Positions 9,686 to 54,148 of a DNA stretch of 64,000 bases are shown here, piece by piece. The stretch is from Pusillimonas sp. TS35 (GTDB lineage: Bacteria; Pseudomonadota; Gammaproteobacteria; Burkholderiales; Burkholderiaceae_B). The stretch's first letter is position 1, and the number at the start of each line of letters is the position of its first letter. The notes beneath the pieces are model-generated. The model made no database searches, had not been told where the DNA came from, and saw only the letters and a list, made by a program, of their open reading frames with translations. The stretch is taken from NCBI RefSeq assembly GCF_009857885.1, contig NZ_WWER01000001.1, forward strand, positions 124,001 to 188,000, read 5' to 3'. The position numbers and the translations under genes were made by a program.

Positions 9686-11094
9686 TTTTTATTACTGCTA
9701 CTGCTGCTTAGGTTGGCGAGTTGTTGGGTGAGATAAGAGCTGATGGAATTCATTTGCGCCAGCGTGGAATCGAGTTGGATGAACTGCTTGCGCATGCTTT
9801 CCATCTTGACGTCGATGCGATCCGACGTGGCCTGGTATTGCTTTTCAAGGTCTTTCAGCGTGGCAGTCATACTGTCGGACGCCAGGCTGATTGTGCCGCC
9901 GCTTTTGGTGTAGCGATCAGACACTGCACTGGCTTTGGTGGCAATGCCGCCAGTGTCGGAGAACAGCTTGCGCACATCGACCATGTTGGCCTTCAGGGCC
10001 GCGTCCAGCTTGGTGTTGTCGATGACGAGCTTGCCTTCCTTTGGATCGGTGGTAATGCCTATCTGTGCAAGGGTGGCGAACGCGCCCGAGTTCTGGGCCG
10101 TGTTCAGCGCGCCACGAAGCTCCGACTGTACGCTGCGCGCCAGGCTGTCGCCCGTGAGCGCGCTGGCTGTCTGGTTGTCGACGTTGTAGGTGGTCAACGA
10201 TTTGATGATGCCCTGCAGGCTGTTGTACGTATCGACAAATGTCTTGATGGCCCCGCTGGTGACGCTGTCGTTTGCTGTAATCGACAGCGATTCGGGCTTG
10301 CCGGCCGTTGTGGTCTGGGCCAGTGTAAGCGTCACACCTTCGATCGCACCATCAATCGTATTACTTTGGTTGGTGACGGAAATACCGTTGACCACCACGC
10401 TTGCGTTAGTGGCGGCGGTTTCAGCCAGGTTAGGGTTGGGCGCGCCGCCTTTATCGAAACCGAACAGGGCATTGACACCCGATACATCCGAGGCGCCGTC
10501 CGCCGCCGCAACGGTGATGGACTGGACTGCAGCATCGGTGCCCGTTGCCTGCGATGTGAGCAGCAGGCGATGGGGATTGGCGCTGCCGTCATTGACCAGT
10601 GTGGCGTTCACACCCAGGCCGCTCTGTTCGTTGATCGCCTTGACGATGCCTTCGAGCGAGGAGTTGGCCTGAGAGACAGTAACAGCCTTGCTGGAGCCAT
10701 TTGCAAGTGTGACGGTAAGCGTGACGTCGCCCGCAGCCAGCGTGCTTGTACGGCTTGCCTGGCCTGTGCCGGTAAGTGTCTGGCGGGTGGCTAGTGCTTG
10801 CACGTCTATCATGTATTCGCCGGCAATGGCTGCCGAGGTGGCGGTGGCGGTAAAGGCGCTGCCACCCGCCTTGGCCGTCATCGCACCGAAGGTTTCCGCC
10901 TTGCCCAGTGCGTCGGCTGCCGCTTTGAAAGCTTCAATGGCGCTTTTGATGGTGCCATAGCCGGACAGGCGGCTTTGTACCGCCTTGGCGCGCGTGTCGA
11001 TCAGCGTGAGCGCACCGTTTTCGCTCTTGCGCAGATTCTCCAGCAGAGTGTCCAGGGGGAGCCCCGAACCGACCCCGATCGATGAAATAGCCAT
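9682..11094 (-). CDS. fliD: Flagellar filament cap protein FliD (HAP2)
   Basis: FliD caps the growing filament and places incoming flagellin subunits. The 470-residue product starts with SSIGVGSGLPLDTLLENLR, a typical FliD N-terminus, has coiled-coil ends and a Thr/Ala/Ser-rich middle, and ends in SLAQMNSISSYLTQQLANL. A good ribosome site (CGGAG) precedes the ATG at 11094. It is followed by overlapping fliS and probably lies in one transcript flaG-fliD-fliS-fliT. Confidence 0.96.
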   Translation of the reverse strand: MAISSIGVGSGLPLDTLLENLRKSENGALTLIDTRAKAVQSRLSGYGTIKSAIEAFKAAADALGKAETFGAMTAKAGGSAFTATATSAAIAGEYMIDVQALATRQTLTGTGQASRTSTLAAGDVTLTVTLANGSSKAVTVSQANSSLEGIVKAINEQSGLGVNATLVNDGSANPHRLLLTSQATGTDAAVQSITVAAADGASDVSGVNALFGFDKGGAPNPNLAETAATNASVVVNGISVTNQSNTIDGAIEGVTLTLAQTTTAGKPESLSITANDSVTSGAIKTFVDTYNSLQGIIKSLTTYNVDNQTASALTGDSLARSVQSELRGALNTAQNSGAFATLAQIGITTDPKEGKLVIDNTKLDAALKANMVDVRKLFSDTGGIATKASAVSDRYTKSGGTISLASDSMTATLKDLEKQYQATSDRIDVKMESMRKQFIQLDSTLAQMNSISSYLTQQLANLSSSSSNKK

Positions 11095-13658: not shown

Positions 13659-14846
13659 ATGGCTGTCATTAACACCAATTACTTGGCTCTGGTTGCACAA
13701 GGCAATCTGAACAAGTCTCAATCTTCGCTGAGTTCCGCCATCGAGCGTCTGTCCTCGGGCATGCGTATCAACAGCGCCAAAGACGATGCCGCAGGCCAGG
13801 CCATTGCCAACCGCTTTACCTCCAACATCAAAGGCCTCACCCAAGCGGGCCGCAATGCCAACGATGGTATTTCGATTGCGCAGACAACTGAAAGTTCGCT
13901 GAACGAGATCAACAACAACTTGCAGCGTATCCGCGAACTGGCGGTTCAGGCTTCCAACGGTACGAACTCGTCTTCGGATCTGACCTCCATCCAGGCTGAA
14001 ATTGACCAGCGCCTGTCGGAAATCGACCGTATTTCAGAGCAAACCCAGTTTAACGGCACCAAGGTTCTGGCCAGCGACAAGACGCTGAGCATCCAGGTCG
14101 GCGCCAACGACGGCCAGACCATCGACATCCAGCTCAAGCAGATCGACAGCGGCAAGCTGAGTCTGCAAGGCTTCAATGTGAATGGCACAACGGGCACGCT
14201 TGGTGCTGCGACGGCCGCCCAGATCAAGAAGAACTACGGCGACAGCACTGCTGTGACGGCAGTCAAAGTTGACTCGACCAACTTTGCGACCAATCTGTCC
14301 GCTCGTCTGGGCATTGCCGATACCAGCATCGCCCCCGCCGCGGCCGTGGTTCAGGATGGCAAGGGCAACTGGTACGCCCAGGTGGATATCACGGCGGCCA
14401 GCGCAGGCGAGTCCGCCGCGCTGAAGGCAAACGGTTTCGATATCGACAACAGTGCTACCAAGTCCTACTACATTGCCCTGGATCCTCAGAAAGCAACTTT
14501 TGCCGGCACCGATGCAACGATCGCGATCGATGGCAACGCGGTCAGCTTCAAGGCGCTGGTTGGCAATTCGACATCCAATCCGCTGGACGCGCTGGATAAG
14601 GCCTTGGCAAGCGTTGACAGCCTGCGCAGCGACCTGGGTGCGATCCAGAATCGCTTCCAGTCCACGATTACCAACCTGAACAACACGGTCACCAACCTGT
14701 CCGCTGCTCGTTCGCGCATCGAAGACGCTGACTACGCTGTCGAAGTGTCGAACATGACGCGTGCTCAGATCCTGCAACAGGCTGGCACCTCGGTTCTGGC
14801 CCAGGCCAACCAGGTTCCGCAGACTGTGTTGTCGCTGCTGCGTTAA
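13659..14846 (+). CDS. fliC: Flagellin
   Basis: The major filament subunit, 395 residues. Both conserved ends are present: N-terminal D0/D1 ([46 protein letters not shown]) and C-terminal D1/D0 ([40 protein letters not shown]). The centre is variable and Ala/Thr/Asp-rich, as expected for the surface-exposed domain. AGGAG precedes the ATG. It has its own sigma-28 promoter and a terminator after it, so it is monocistronic. Confidence 0.98.
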
Positions 14847-25980: not shown

Positions 25981-26018
25981 AAAAACAAAACTGCCCCACA
26001 TCTTTCGATGCGAGGCAG
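25981..26018 (-). terminator. Displaced terminator, probably the original tRNA-Met terminator
   Basis: Read on the minus strand: CTGCCTCGCATC, GAAA tetraloop, GATGTGGGGCAG (12-bp stem with two G-T pairs), then TTTTGTTTTTG. It sits 13 bases beyond the outer copy of the 19-bp tRNA 3'-end repeat, the same distance as the terminator next to the intact tRNA. It is best explained as the tRNA terminator separated from its gene by the insertion. Confidence 0.8.
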
Positions 26019-26031
26019 CCTAGTGAATTCT

Positions 26032-26050
26032 TTGGTGGCGCATCCCTGAT
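26032..26050. repeat. Outer attachment-site repeat (att)
   Basis: Nineteen bases, TTGGTGGCGCATCCCTGAT, identical to the 3' end of the tRNA-Met gene at 28544-28562. It has no tRNA body next to it, so it is the distal att scar of the element. Confidence 0.88.
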
Positions 26051-26197
26051 GCTGGGATTTTGCCCAGTGTTACGTAGAATATATATAATTCTCAACGTCT
26101 TACAAGCTGCTTGGCGCTAGTGTATCAGCGGGGTGTACCAGCTTCCAAGCGAAATCGATTACGAAATTCTTGGGCAAAAACACCTGCTTGTTCAGTT

Positions 26198-26261: not shown

Positions 26262-26510
26262 ATGCTGACCGGCAACCGTCCCCGCAGCGCGGCAAGGCGT
26301 GCCACGAATGTGTCACTGCCAGAGGACCTTCTTTCCGAGGCGAAGGCCTTGCAAATCAATATCTCGCAGGCCGCTGAAGCTGGTGTTGCCCAGGCCATCG
26401 CACGCACGCGCAGCGAGCGCTGGCTTGCCGAGAACAAGGAAGCCATTGAGAGCTCCAACGCTTTTGTTGAAAAACACGGCCTTCCACTGGCAAAGTATCG
26501 GATGTTCTGA
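26262..26510 (+). CDS. ccdA: CcdA-type antitoxin
   Basis: The 82-residue product has a basic N-terminal ribbon-helix-helix-like DNA-binding part (RPRSAARRATNVSLPEDLLS, then EAKALQINISQAAEAGV). Its acidic C-terminal tail (ERWLAENKEAIESSNAFVEK) matches the toxin-binding end of CcdA. The start has a strong ribosome site (AAGGAG). The stop overlaps the ccdB start by 1 nt (TGATG), the usual toxin-antitoxin coupling. It neutralises CcdB and represses the operon. It lies inside the degenerate tRNA-Met element, where it may select against loss of the region. Confidence 0.92.
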   Translation: MLTGNRPRSAARRATNVSLPEDLLSEAKALQINISQAAEAGVAQAIARTRSERWLAENKEAIESSNAFVEKHGLPLAKYRMF

Positions 26511-26809
26511 TGAGCCGCTACGACGTTTACGCGAACCCGTCAGGCCATGGGTATCTTCTTGATGTCCAGGCAGACATCCTGCAGTCGCTAAATACGAGAG
26601 CTGTTGTGCCACTGCTACCACTTGGCGAGGCGCCCAAACCAGCAAAGACACTTAACCCTGTTTTTGACATAGGTGGTGAACCCTACGCGATGGTGACGCA
26701 ATACATCGCTGCAGTTCCGGACAGGGAGCTACAGAACCCCGTATGCAGTCTCCGACAGTTGCACGACGATATTGTGGGTGCCATTGACTTTTTGTTTCAT
26801 GGATTCTGA
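26510..26809 (+). CDS. ccdB: CcdB-type toxin (gyrase poison)
   Basis: The 99-residue product aligns by eye with F-plasmid CcdB along its whole length: an N-terminal beta-strand YDVYANP, LLDVQADIL, AVVPLLPL, PVFDIGGEPYAMVTQYIAAV, then LHDDIVGAIDFLFHGF. F-plasmid CcdB ends in Trp-Gly-Ile, which inserts into GyrA; here the end is His-Gly-Phe, so the critical Trp is replaced. Length is normal, with no frameshift. Toxicity may be altered, or this may be one of the chromosomal CcdB variants. Confidence 0.92.
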   Translation: MSRYDVYANPSGHGYLLDVQADILQSLNTRAVVPLLPLGEAPKPAKTLNPVFDIGGEPYAMVTQYIAAVPDRELQNPVCSLRQLHDDIVGAIDFLFHGF

Positions 26810-26835: not shown

Positions 26836-27360
26836 TTAGATATCGCTCACGCAGTGTCTTTGCTCGAAGTGCCGGTCAGTGGGTTTCAGCGCATTTACCT
26901 CATGTAGTGATGCACCATCATGCACCCATATGGCTAGTCCGGATGGAAACGGAGCCGTGCCGATAATTGTGAATATGATGCCGCTTAACTGCTTTTTGGC
27001 CGCAATGGCATAGTCTGCGGCGAGTTCTACATCCTCCTGCGATGGGGATGGCACCGGCTCCGGGTGTGAATGCCATAGCCCGATGCAGTGCAATCCCTTG
27101 GAGAACATCCTCTTGCGCTCAGCCATTGCTGTACTGGGAACAAACTGAACTCGTGCCCGTCGGGACCATGCTGGCTTCAACAGCGTGGCTTCGTCGATGA
27201 CGATGGTGTCGGTGGTAAGGTCTCGCGAGTACAGCTGACGTACAGATTCCTTTGCGTTCCAGGCACATTGGGTGTGCTGAGAGAGAAACAGGGCAACGTG
27301 CCCAGGAATTTCCAGCTTCCAGCGTGCCCGGGCAACTTGGTATTGGAGGGCCTCGCTCAT
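26836..27360 (-). CDS. JAB/MPN (JAMM) metalloprotease, deubiquitinase-like
   Basis: The 174-residue product carries a complete JAMM zinc motif: H97-S-H99, seven residues, S107, two residues, D110 (in GLWHSHPEPVPSPSQED), plus an upstream Glu (E38 in KESVRQLYSR) at the expected catalytic position. In bacterial ubiquitin-like systems such proteins cut Ubl or substrate conjugates. The ATG at 27360 overlaps the TGA of the E1-like remnant (ATGA), so the two were an operon. The protease looks intact while its E1 partner is destroyed. A TTG-started longer frame (27522) is simply the E1 coding region in another frame. Confidence 0.85.
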   Translation of the reverse strand: MSEALQYQVARARWKLEIPGHVALFLSQHTQCAWNAKESVRQLYSRDLTTDTIVIDEATLLKPAWSRRARVQFVPSTAMAERKRMFSKGLHCIGLWHSHPEPVPSPSQEDVELAADYAIAAKKQLSGIIFTIIGTAPFPSGLAIWVHDGASLHEVNALKPTDRHFEQRHCVSDI

Positions 27361-27777
27361 GGTGCGCCCATGACTGAACGGTAGTCTCTGGTTCGCATGA
27401 CAGAATCGTAGCGGGAGCCGTCCAGGGGCACGATGGCGCGCAGAGGGACCTGGCCTGAGACAGGAAGGGCGTCGTAGAAAGCTTTTGTCCTTACCCAGCT
27501 CCACACAGTTGCCTCGGTGCATTGGCCATCAAGCACGGCGAGGACCCGTTCTGTAGCGAATGCCGCGCCTTGCCAGGCATCCGCAGCGCCGTAGGGGTGA
27601 CATTGGGGCTATCAAAGCGTTCGCTGTCGACAATGTCCAGGTTACCGACACCAGCGCGGGCAAGCAATTCCACAATGGGGCTTCCCAGGGACCCACAGCC
27701 GATGATGAGCACCTTTTTCTGCTGCCTTTTCTCGAATGGTTTCGGCGCGTGGTCTCGCGTGAGGCCCCAAGAGGCGT
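27357..27777 (-). pseudogene. E1-like (ThiF family) adenylyltransferase remnant
   Basis: Two pieces of one E1-type gene survive in different frames. The first reads KPFEKRQQKKVLIIGCGSLG, then SPIVELLARAGVGNLDIVDS (27773-27620). This is the nucleotide-binding Rossmann start of a ThiF/E1 domain with GCGSLG. The second, in a frame shifted by one, reads PYGAADAWQGAAFATERVLA, then TEATVWSWVRTKAFYDALPV, and ends VMGAP at 27357. The adenylation core and the catalytic Cys region are missing between them, and the upstream part is cut by the integrase gene. The end overlaps the JAB start by ATGA. Originally probably an E2-E1 or E1 protein of a Ubl-type system. Confidence 0.82.
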
Positions 27778-28448
27778 CTAAGCCTTCGGCTCTGAGTGGT
27801 TAGAAACATACAGATGGCTCAAATCCACGCCTTCGAACCTAATCATGTCTACAGCTTCAATCAGGGCCTGGTTGCTGAACGTGCGACGACCACCGCTTTT
27901 CTTTCCGTAACGGTCGGTCATCCCCTCAAGGGAATGCCCCATAAGAGCATCGAGAATCGATTCTGAAACACCGCTTTCAATGCCGAAATCCTTCATGTTG
28001 TGCCGGAATGAATGGAAGGTGTAGCGAGAGTCGTCGATGACGTGCTCGTCCAAGTATTCATTGAACCACGTTGAAAAGATGGCGGTGTATTGCTGGTATT
28101 TGTTCAGGCGCAGTTGCGGGAACAGCCGTTCATGCCCTTGTTCGCGTCGGCTTTCGACGAAAGCCTTAAAGCCGATTTTGAGCAGTTCCGGGTGCACGGG
28201 CACTGAGCGCCACGATGTATCATTTTTCACGAATTGCGTTTCGTCCAGTTCTGTGATGCGTATCCAGAGCTGGTCACTGCGTAGGGAAATGTCGTTCACG
28301 AAGAGCTGACCAATTTCTTCCAGTCGTGCGCCTGTGGTGAACGCTATACGTTCAATGTCGCGGGTTGTTGGGCGGTGTATGTACCAGCCTTCTGTACCAG
28401 CTACTTCGTCTAGCAACTTGTCGTTAAACCTAAAATGGAAACCACTTT
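27778..28448 (-). pseudogene. Tyrosine recombinase (phage-type integrase), N-terminus missing
   Basis: About 212-223 residues of the catalytic domain remain, with the active-site pattern visible: Arg in TTGARLEEIGQL, H-x-x-R in HSFRHNMKDFG, His in LMGHSLEG and Tyr in MTDRYGKK. The frame opens just after a TAA at about 28449-28451, and no ATG is available (first usable codon TTG at 28416). The arm-binding and core-binding N-terminal domains are therefore lost. It sits 96 bases from the tRNA-proximal att, the usual place for the integrase of a tRNA-targeted island. It probably cannot excise the element. Confidence 0.85.
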
Positions 28449-28495
28449 AGATGAAAAAACACCATTGAAAATCAAATACTTACGTATTCAAGAAA

Positions 28496-28532
28496 CAAAA
28501 AAAAACCGCCCCGAACCTTGCGGTTTCGGGGC
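28496..28532 (-). terminator. Terminator after tRNA-Met (brought in by the element)
   Basis: Minus strand: GCCCCGAAACC, GCAA loop, GGTTCGGGGC (10-bp stem with one bulged A) and a long T run. It lies 12 bases beyond the tRNA CCA end, mirroring the displaced terminator at 25981-26018. Confidence 0.88.
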
Positions 28533-28543
28533 AGCTTGTATTC

Positions 28544-28562
28544 TTGGTGGCGCATCCCTGAT
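28544..28562. repeat. tRNA-proximal attachment-site repeat (att)
   Basis: The copy within the intact tRNA-Met gene: 18 bases of the tRNA 3' end including the encoded CCA, plus one flanking base. The partner copy is at 26032-26050. Confidence 0.88.
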
Positions 28563-28621
28563 TCGAACAGGGGACCTGCGGATTATGATTCCGTCGCTCT
28601 AACCGGCTGAGCTAATGCGCC
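28545..28621 (-). tRNA. tRNA-Met (CAT), elongator
   Basis: A 77-nt cloverleaf with encoded CCA. The acceptor stem is GGCGCAT / ATGCGCC, D-arm AGCTCAGCCGGTTAGAGC, anticodon loop ATCATAA with anticodon CAT, and T-arm GGTTCGAATC type (CTGTTCGAATCAG). The acceptor and loop features fit elongator tRNA-Met rather than initiator. Its 3' end serves as the att site of the adjacent element. Confidence 0.95.
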
Positions 28622-35411: not shown

Positions 35412-35496
35412 TGGTGCCCAGGAGAGGACTCGAACCTCCACACCTTGCGGCACATGGACCTGAACCATGCGCGTCTACCAATTCCGCCACCTGGGC
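35412..35496 (-). tRNA. tRNA-Leu (CAG), copy 1
   Basis: An 85-nt class II tRNA with a long variable arm and encoded CCA. Acceptor stem GCCCAGG / CCTGGGC, anticodon CAG within GGTTCAGGTCC, T-arm GGTTCGAGTCC. It is identical to the copy at 54064-54148 on the other strand. Confidence 0.95.
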
Positions 35497-54063: not shown

Positions 54064-54148
54064 GCCCAGGTGGCGGAATTGGTAGACGCGCATGGTTCAG
54101 GTCCATGTGCCGCAAGGTGTGGAGGTTCGAGTCCTCTCCTGGGCACCA
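54064..54148 (+). tRNA. tRNA-Leu (CAG), copy 2
   Basis: An 85-nt class II tRNA with encoded CCA, identical in sequence to the minus-strand copy at 35412-35496; anticodon CAG. Its terminator (54157-54189) is also identical. The upstream sequence differs, so the two have separate promoters. Confidence 0.95.

Follow-up and report, generated by a model that had tools for sequence, protein, structure and literature searches.

The closest described systems

The systems closest to the locus described here are type II CBASS operons. The nearest of these, in the MAG FW106-10_bin.30 (locus L036, the same as L012), encodes an HNH-SAVED effector, a CD-NTase, Cap2 and Cap3 in four whole genes (563, 404, 594 and 168 aa). 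Another whole operon, alike in gene order and families but with a 2TM-SAVED effector, is found in Bordetella genomosp. 12 (L043, the same as L013), with no tRNA gene in the 19 kb fetched. In E. coli Cap3, the substitution E38A abolishes isopeptidase activity (excerpt of PMC10097602). Chromosomal ccdAB islets such as ccdO157 are the nearest parallel to the other end of our locus (excerpt of PMC2654758). The same excerpt discusses the stabilization of genomic islands by toxin–antitoxin pairs, and reports that ccdO157 of E. coli was unable to prevent large deletions or to stabilize a plasmid.

Here we analyze a window of 64,000 nucleotides from Pusillimonas sp. TS35 (contig NZ_WWER01000001.1, positions 124,001 to 188,000), in which a type II CBASS operon survives as a clear fossil whose lost parts can be listed. 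Its JAB protein is 58–59% identical to that of L036 and its two Cap2 scraps are 81% and 68% identical, and the ATGA overlap of Cap2 and Cap3 is found in both loci. In L036, however, all four genes are whole, and no match to the integrase scrap or to ccdAB adjoins them. Identity to the Bordetella JAB is 45%. Among solved structures, the Cap3 of 9ild has the nearest fold and has the JAMM residues in common with the window JAB, which differs in carrying an Arg after the Glu and in having no Cap2 or CD-NTase partner. The ccdAB pair resembles the ccdO157 islet in being small, with ccdAB alone forming the islet, but it is bounded by att copies at a tRNA-Met gene and is accompanied by the wreck of a defense system.

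We consider it probable that the locus is an eroded tRNA-Met island with a dead type II CBASS, a JAB gene that is a mere passenger, and a ccdAB pair that possibly holds the island in place. As a defense system, the CBASS wreck is dead and ordinary, and it cautions against taking an open Cap3-like frame as proof that a genome has a working defense system; the ccdAB end of the island is the more interesting lead. Our literature search found no paper on a CBASS, or a CBASS remnant, with ccdAB at a tRNA gene, a result that holds for that search and not for the literature at large.

A 2.5-kb island at tRNA-Met

The integration target is a tRNA-Met (CAT) gene on the minus strand (28545..28621). A 19-bp att copy at its 3' end (28544..28562) recurs identically at the distal end of the island (26032..26050), where the 18/18 match of the core was reached by none of 200 block shuffles. 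The two copies lie 2,512 bp apart and form the direct repeat that marks a tRNA-integrated island. On the distal side, a promoter-like site lies upstream of ccdA (26060..26089, plus strand; 10/12, a consensus match alone). On the tRNA side lies a tyrosine integrase scrap on the minus strand (27778..28446, 222 codons; Pfam Phage_integrase 2.9e-13), of which only the catalytic C-terminal domain is left. Its matched relatives are 407–582 aa long, and without an N-terminus it does not amount to a functional integrase.

Two terminator hairpins, both on the minus strand, lie near the att copies. The first (25988..26021, z -4.7) lies outside the left att and is probably the host's own tRNA-Met terminator. 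The second (28490..28540; z -4.8 for 28488–28545 as folded) immediately follows the tRNA and lies inside the att, within the island. These are the positions that would be expected if the element had brought a replacement for the terminator of the tRNA.

Cap2 scraps and the deletions

Two pieces of Cap2, both on the minus strand, lie between the integrase and the JAB gene. Scrap N (27602..27799) carries the Rossmann start GCGSLG and corresponds to residues 317–382 of the L012/L036 Cap2; scrap C (27357..27599), which lies in a frame of its own, corresponds to residues 517–593 by DNA alignment. A tblastn search with the intact L012 Cap2 gave 27602–27799 (residues 317–382) and 27363–27608 (residues 510–593). 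Scrap N matches Pfam ThiF (E 1.6e-12) and scrap C has no Pfam match, and both match a single 573-residue PADLOC model of CBASS E1–E2 (Cap2), PDLC00856, at residues 303–363 and 504–570, respectively. The earlier note, which was made from the sequence alone, had described an E1 gene surviving only as its Rossmann start and its C-terminal end in another frame; both pieces can now be assigned to that one model.

The internal deletion is out of frame. Alignment to the closest intact operon, as the note had advised, was run with L012 and maps a loss of about 400 bp to 27599–27602, so that the deletion itself is confirmed and its proposed position near 27610 is corrected. The missing segment includes the cysteine of a PAC pattern (residue 512 in L036), which is present in 12 of 16 Cap2 relatives, the pattern having not been located in the other four. 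This residue may be the same as C513, the predicted E1 catalytic cysteine of Cap2 (excerpt of PMC10097602), judging from its position. Upstream of scrap N the whole remainder of Cap2 has gone, including the E2 domain. The integrase stop codon (27778–27780) falls inside the DNA covered by the Cap2 match, and the fusion of integrase and Cap2, to which the upstream loss had been ascribed, is real. Rather than a complete Cap2, an E2–E1 fusion with the cysteines of both domains, two out-of-frame scraps remain. The downstream junction is preserved: the TGA of scrap C (27357–27359) overlaps the ATG of the JAB gene (27358–27360) as ATGA, just as the note had reported, and Cap3 follows Cap2 as in type II CBASS.

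An assembly or sequencing error that conceals a whole Cap2 is the least probable of the explanations that we weighed. The assembly is in 25 contigs, which would favor it. It would, however, require that three separate losses (the integrase N-terminus, the integrase/Cap2 junction and the 400 bp within Cap2) all be errors, and the locus lies deep inside its contig, about 150 kb into 875 kb. Moreover, genome G187, from another genus, bears the island in another state of erosion.

Identity of the parent operon

A contig scan of genomes for JAB relatives gave 18 titled loci. Directly upstream of the JAB, 16 of them carry a CD-NTase and a full-length Cap2; L036, which supplied our Cap2 and CD-NTase queries, is one of the 16. 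The exceptions are L051, with a JAB alone, and L052, near a contig end. We looked for the CD-NTase C-terminus in 15 loci and could read it in 12; every one of the 12 ends in Gly or Ala, as is reported for those CBASS that have complete Cap2 and Cap3 (excerpt of PMC10097602). In view of the CBASS model matches of both scraps and of the JAB, and of the CD-NTase and Cap2 in 16/18 relatives, we conclude that the parent of the wreck was a type II CBASS operon whose Cap2 was of the E2–E1 fusion type. The earlier proposal of a remnant E1–JAB system is thus borne out, and the PADLOC best matches and the 16/18 loci narrow it to type II CBASS.

An E1 paired with a JAB is likewise found in Bil and other bacterial ubiquitin-like operons, and a Bil operon includes a gene for the ubiquitin-like BilA. 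We nonetheless regard descent from such an operon rather than from CBASS as highly improbable: the best PADLOC matches are the CBASS E1–E2 and JAB models, and 16 of the 18 titled relatives have a CD-NTase in the operon. Bil was set apart by general PADLOC matching and by the operons of the titled relatives, and in the island the same general searches identified no BilA-like ubiquitin-like gene.

The partners that a type II CBASS needs are missing. No CD-NTase was seen in the island, and a profile search of the whole genome with the SMODS family gave no match; the same model gives 40.2 and 35.3 bits for two intact relatives. Family searches of the same genome found no second Prok-JAB and, with ThiF, no other Cap2-like E1; the further ThiF matches are MoeB-like, TcdA-like and, weakly, flavoprotein-like (named by eye). 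As neither a CD-NTase nor a Cap2-like E1 is matched elsewhere in the genome, the JAB would be unable to act in CBASS here.

Among the relatives, a Cap3-like gene in Variovorax sp. J22G73 (L052:692–1275) appears to be broken between two reading frames and has a partial Cap2 next to it, close to the end of the contig. It is possibly a second decaying copy.

The JAB gene

The Cap3-type JAB/JAMM isopeptidase gene lies on the minus strand (26836..27360) and is open over 174 codons. Its product matches Pfam Prok-JAB with 42.6 bits (cut-off 25) and the PADLOC JAB (Cap3) model PDLC00900 over residues 5–159 (E 2.8e-61). The five JAMM residues E38, H97, H99, S107 and D110 are all present, the last four arranged as H97-S-H99-x7-S107-x2-D110 and E38 serving as the Glu. 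The protein accordingly has the ExnHxHx7Sx2D motif given for Cap3/JAMM isopeptidases (excerpt of PMC9313428). An AlphaFold2 model built with 13 sequences has a pLDDT of 85.5, and its best match in the PDB is 9ild, a Cap3 in complex with CD-NTase (TM 0.73, 16% identity).

Three residues after the catalytic Glu38, at position 41, the window JAB has an Arg. The 17/17 relatives in the alignment, from which L052 was left out since it is split over two frames, have Gly at this site, as do L009, L090, L092 and L093 and, among solved structures, the aligned chains of 9ild and 5cw6. (L006, L007 and L091 duplicate loci that are in the count, and for L010 the match stops before reaching the site.) This ExxG glycine is conserved in the alignment made here, and we do not claim it as a published criterion. 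Yet G41R is the only change in the window JAB among 26 otherwise invariant sites. In a leave-one-out comparison of the 16 other JAB sequences, with L051 excluded as disrupted, 13 show no such change and three show 1, 3 and 3. With only one site of 26 affected, and three of 16 other sequences bearing one to three changes of this kind, G41R is a weak sign of decay. The note had called the JAB gene intact, with the full JAMM motif (HSH-x7-S-x2-D) and a candidate Glu; the open frame, the motif and the Glu, which is E38, all stand, while the ExxG glycine has been replaced.

Whether the gene has been kept for a role was approached through its constraint. Measured against L036, the JAB has a pN/pS of 0.35, Cap2 scrap N one of 0.15 and Cap2 scrap C one of 0.24; the comparison is coarse, since synonymous sites are near saturation (pS 0.74–0.89). 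The dead scraps are at least as constrained as the JAB, and the constraint on the JAB therefore reflects the time before the break. Selection maintaining the JAB thus found no support in this test, its constraint being no stronger than that of the dead scraps. The window JAB and the intact L036 JAB are about equally similar to the remaining relatives, with no speeding-up of change seen. From these comparisons there is no evidence that the JAB is retained for a role; of the two fates that the note had offered, preservation for another role and later decay, only the second is favored.

In consensus scans, no promoter-like site was found on the minus strand between the tRNA and the JAB (the promoter scan totals 4 sites, against 2.1 ± 1.6 in shuffles), and no Shine–Dalgarno match of at least 4 lies upstream of the JAB ATG. 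The frame of Cap2 scrap N terminates at 27491–27493, about 130 nt short of coupling translation of the JAB. Because the promoter and Shine–Dalgarno matches are absent and the upstream frame stops short, the JAB is probably hardly expressed.

The JAB is matched in 6 of 268 family genomes at E <= 0.001, and in 5 of an even draw of 399 genomes of the order at E <= 1e-20, its own genome being included in both counts; no near-identical whole copy was found in either set. Seven plasmid records match at E <= 1e-10, all with less than 60% identity. Phage records gave no relatives, nor did viral contigs, which were searched with a single-protein query that detects close relatives only.

Could the orphan JAB have been retained because it works in trans as an isopeptidase, acting on CD-NTase conjugates of an incoming type II CBASS or on a host substrate? 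Its open frame, the kept JAMM residues, the predicted fold nearest to Cap3 and the absence of faster change speak for such a role. Cap3 may have further targets (excerpt of PMC10097602), and the excerpt of PMC11153139 cites a model in which Cap3 antagonizes Cap2. We think this very unlikely, given Arg41 in place of the Gly of 17/17 relatives, 9ild and 5cw6, a constraint that does not exceed that of dead scraps, and the lack of promoter and ribosome site matches. In addition, the JAB has been cut away in G187, and its own genome has no match to a SMODS CD-NTase. We thus retain the reading of the JAB as a decaying passenger, against which count its open 174-codon frame, the five JAMM residues kept and the good Cap3-like model.

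Distribution of the ccdAB pair

On the plus strand, ccdA (26262..26510; Pfam CcdA 1.3e-27) encodes the antitoxin and ccdB (26510..26809; Pfam CcdB 1.6e-30) the toxin. Both are intact, and as adjacent open genes they constitute a ccdAB type II toxin–antitoxin pair, with toxicity and neutralization predicted. The earlier note had passed over this pair. When the whole island was searched as DNA against 268 family genomes, 53 matched, the own genome included; in 23 genomes besides the own, matches fall inside the ccd stretch. G118, G159, G160, G229 and G233 of these 23 were left out of closer study, and our survey of ccdAB took in 20 fetched loci together with L014 of G187. Seventeen of the 20 matched ccdA, which with L014 makes 18 loci: ten have a tRNA-Met gene in the fetched stretch, L054 and L056 have att copies, and six have neither (L063, on a 4-kb contig, L065, L066, L068, L069 and L070).

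The att test comprised the window and 11 of the 12 loci with tRNA or att, L067 being left out since it has ccdA only. An att copy lies within 6 kb after ccdB in 12/12 loci, partly as a result of how the loci were selected. On the other side, 223–232 bp before ccdA, an att-like copy is found in the window and L014 (both 18/18), L059 (17/18) and L054 (15/18), at scores that none of 200 shuffles reached; the copy in L055 scores only 13/18, which 10% of shuffles reach, and in the other seven of the 12 loci no upstream copy was found. ccdAB occurs at the tRNA-Met or an att site in several genera, in some as cassettes of less than 1 kb with att-like copies on both sides. Both genes are open in 11/11 comparisons, with pN/pS of 0.11–0.32 (computable in 21 of 22; the L014 value rests on four differences), which suggests that the pair is under constraint.

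In one of these loci (L054:4880–9836, genome G125), two att copies beside ccdAB enclose genes for an ArsR-type regulator, a member of the low-molecular-weight phosphatase family, an SBF-family transporter and an FMN reductase, presumably an arsenic resistance set. A Phage_integrase gene follows this set at 9988.

Decay and persistence of the island

The sister island of G187 bears on how the pieces have traveled. It shares with the window, at 98% DNA identity, a 916-bp stretch that runs from the distal att across ccdAB to within the JAB end, against 78% identity for an RNase R-like core gene (named by eye) in the same neighborhood; ccdAB and Cap3 therefore moved together. A second flanking gene of L014 had no match in the own genome. 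In G187 the JAB is cut to 37–38 codons. The two genomes thus differ in how far the CBASS part has eroded, while ccdAB is whole in each. Just outside the distal att of this sister island lies a group II intron maturase-domain fragment (L014:12605–13087).

We propose that a small integrative island bearing a type II CBASS, with ccdAB at its integrase-distal end, entered the 3' end of tRNA-Met. One deletion would have removed the integrase N-terminus; another the stretch from the end of the integrase to the middle of Cap2, which, judging by relatives, held the effector, the CD-NTase and the E2 domain; and a third about 400 bp within Cap2 with the conserved E1 cysteine. From the anatomy of the island, the families of its pieces and the missing partners, we infer that conjugation and signaling would now be impossible, that the JAB would be a passenger awaiting loss, and that the island may be retained because its loss, through recombination between the att copies or through deletion, would take ccdAB with it and leave the cell exposed to CcdB. 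Since ccdO157 failed to stabilize in the excerpt of PMC2654758, this addiction step is put forward conditionally.

It could instead be that CBASS and ccdAB were inserted separately at the same att, with ccdAB being irrelevant to persistence. Other genera have ccdAB at this tRNA without a CBASS match beside it, some of the ccdAB cassettes are shorter than 1 kb with an att-like copy on each side, and no whole element with both was found; among the loci examined there is no intact island with integrase, CBASS and ccdAB. However, the ccdAB–JAB junction is 98% identical in another genus, so that at least these two moved together, which is silent on persistence. We judge separate insertion unlikely, if by no means negligible, and keep to the reading of a single island with ccdAB at one end. 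If ccdAB does act in this way, toxin–antitoxin pairs at island ends would help to explain why dead defense islands linger at tRNA genes.

The pattern may be a broader one. We suggest, tentatively and with some doubt, that in this family ccdAB caps the att-proximal end of tRNA-Met islands, where cargo is swapped or eroded, addiction holds the att–ccdAB end, and cassettes of att, toxin–antitoxin and att are the last survivors. The same-genus genome G075 is relevant to such cassettes. Near its tRNA-Met (L072:9021–9918), two att-like copies surround a toxin of the ParE type and an antitoxin of the Phd/YefM type, whose match falls below the Pfam cut-off, and the stretch also contains a 37-residue scrap 59% identical to the window integrase. 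We cite this Phd/ParE-type pair, in a like position beside a like integrase scrap, for the cassette reading.

In G074, of the same genus, no second att lies near the tRNA; a 57-bp copy of tRNA sequence (81%) is found 24 kb away, because of which this is not a proven empty site. The notion that sister species carry large defense islands here was dropped, since the stretch from a TSUP-like gene to the tRNA in G074–G076 is mostly metabolic by eye. In G076, also of this genus, two copies of the tRNA-Met 3' end enclose a Fic/DOC-domain gene (L112:1172–2380). The window also holds three tRNA-Leu(CAG) genes within 40 kb, at 14624–14707, 35412–35496 and 54064–54148, and two lie close together in L014.
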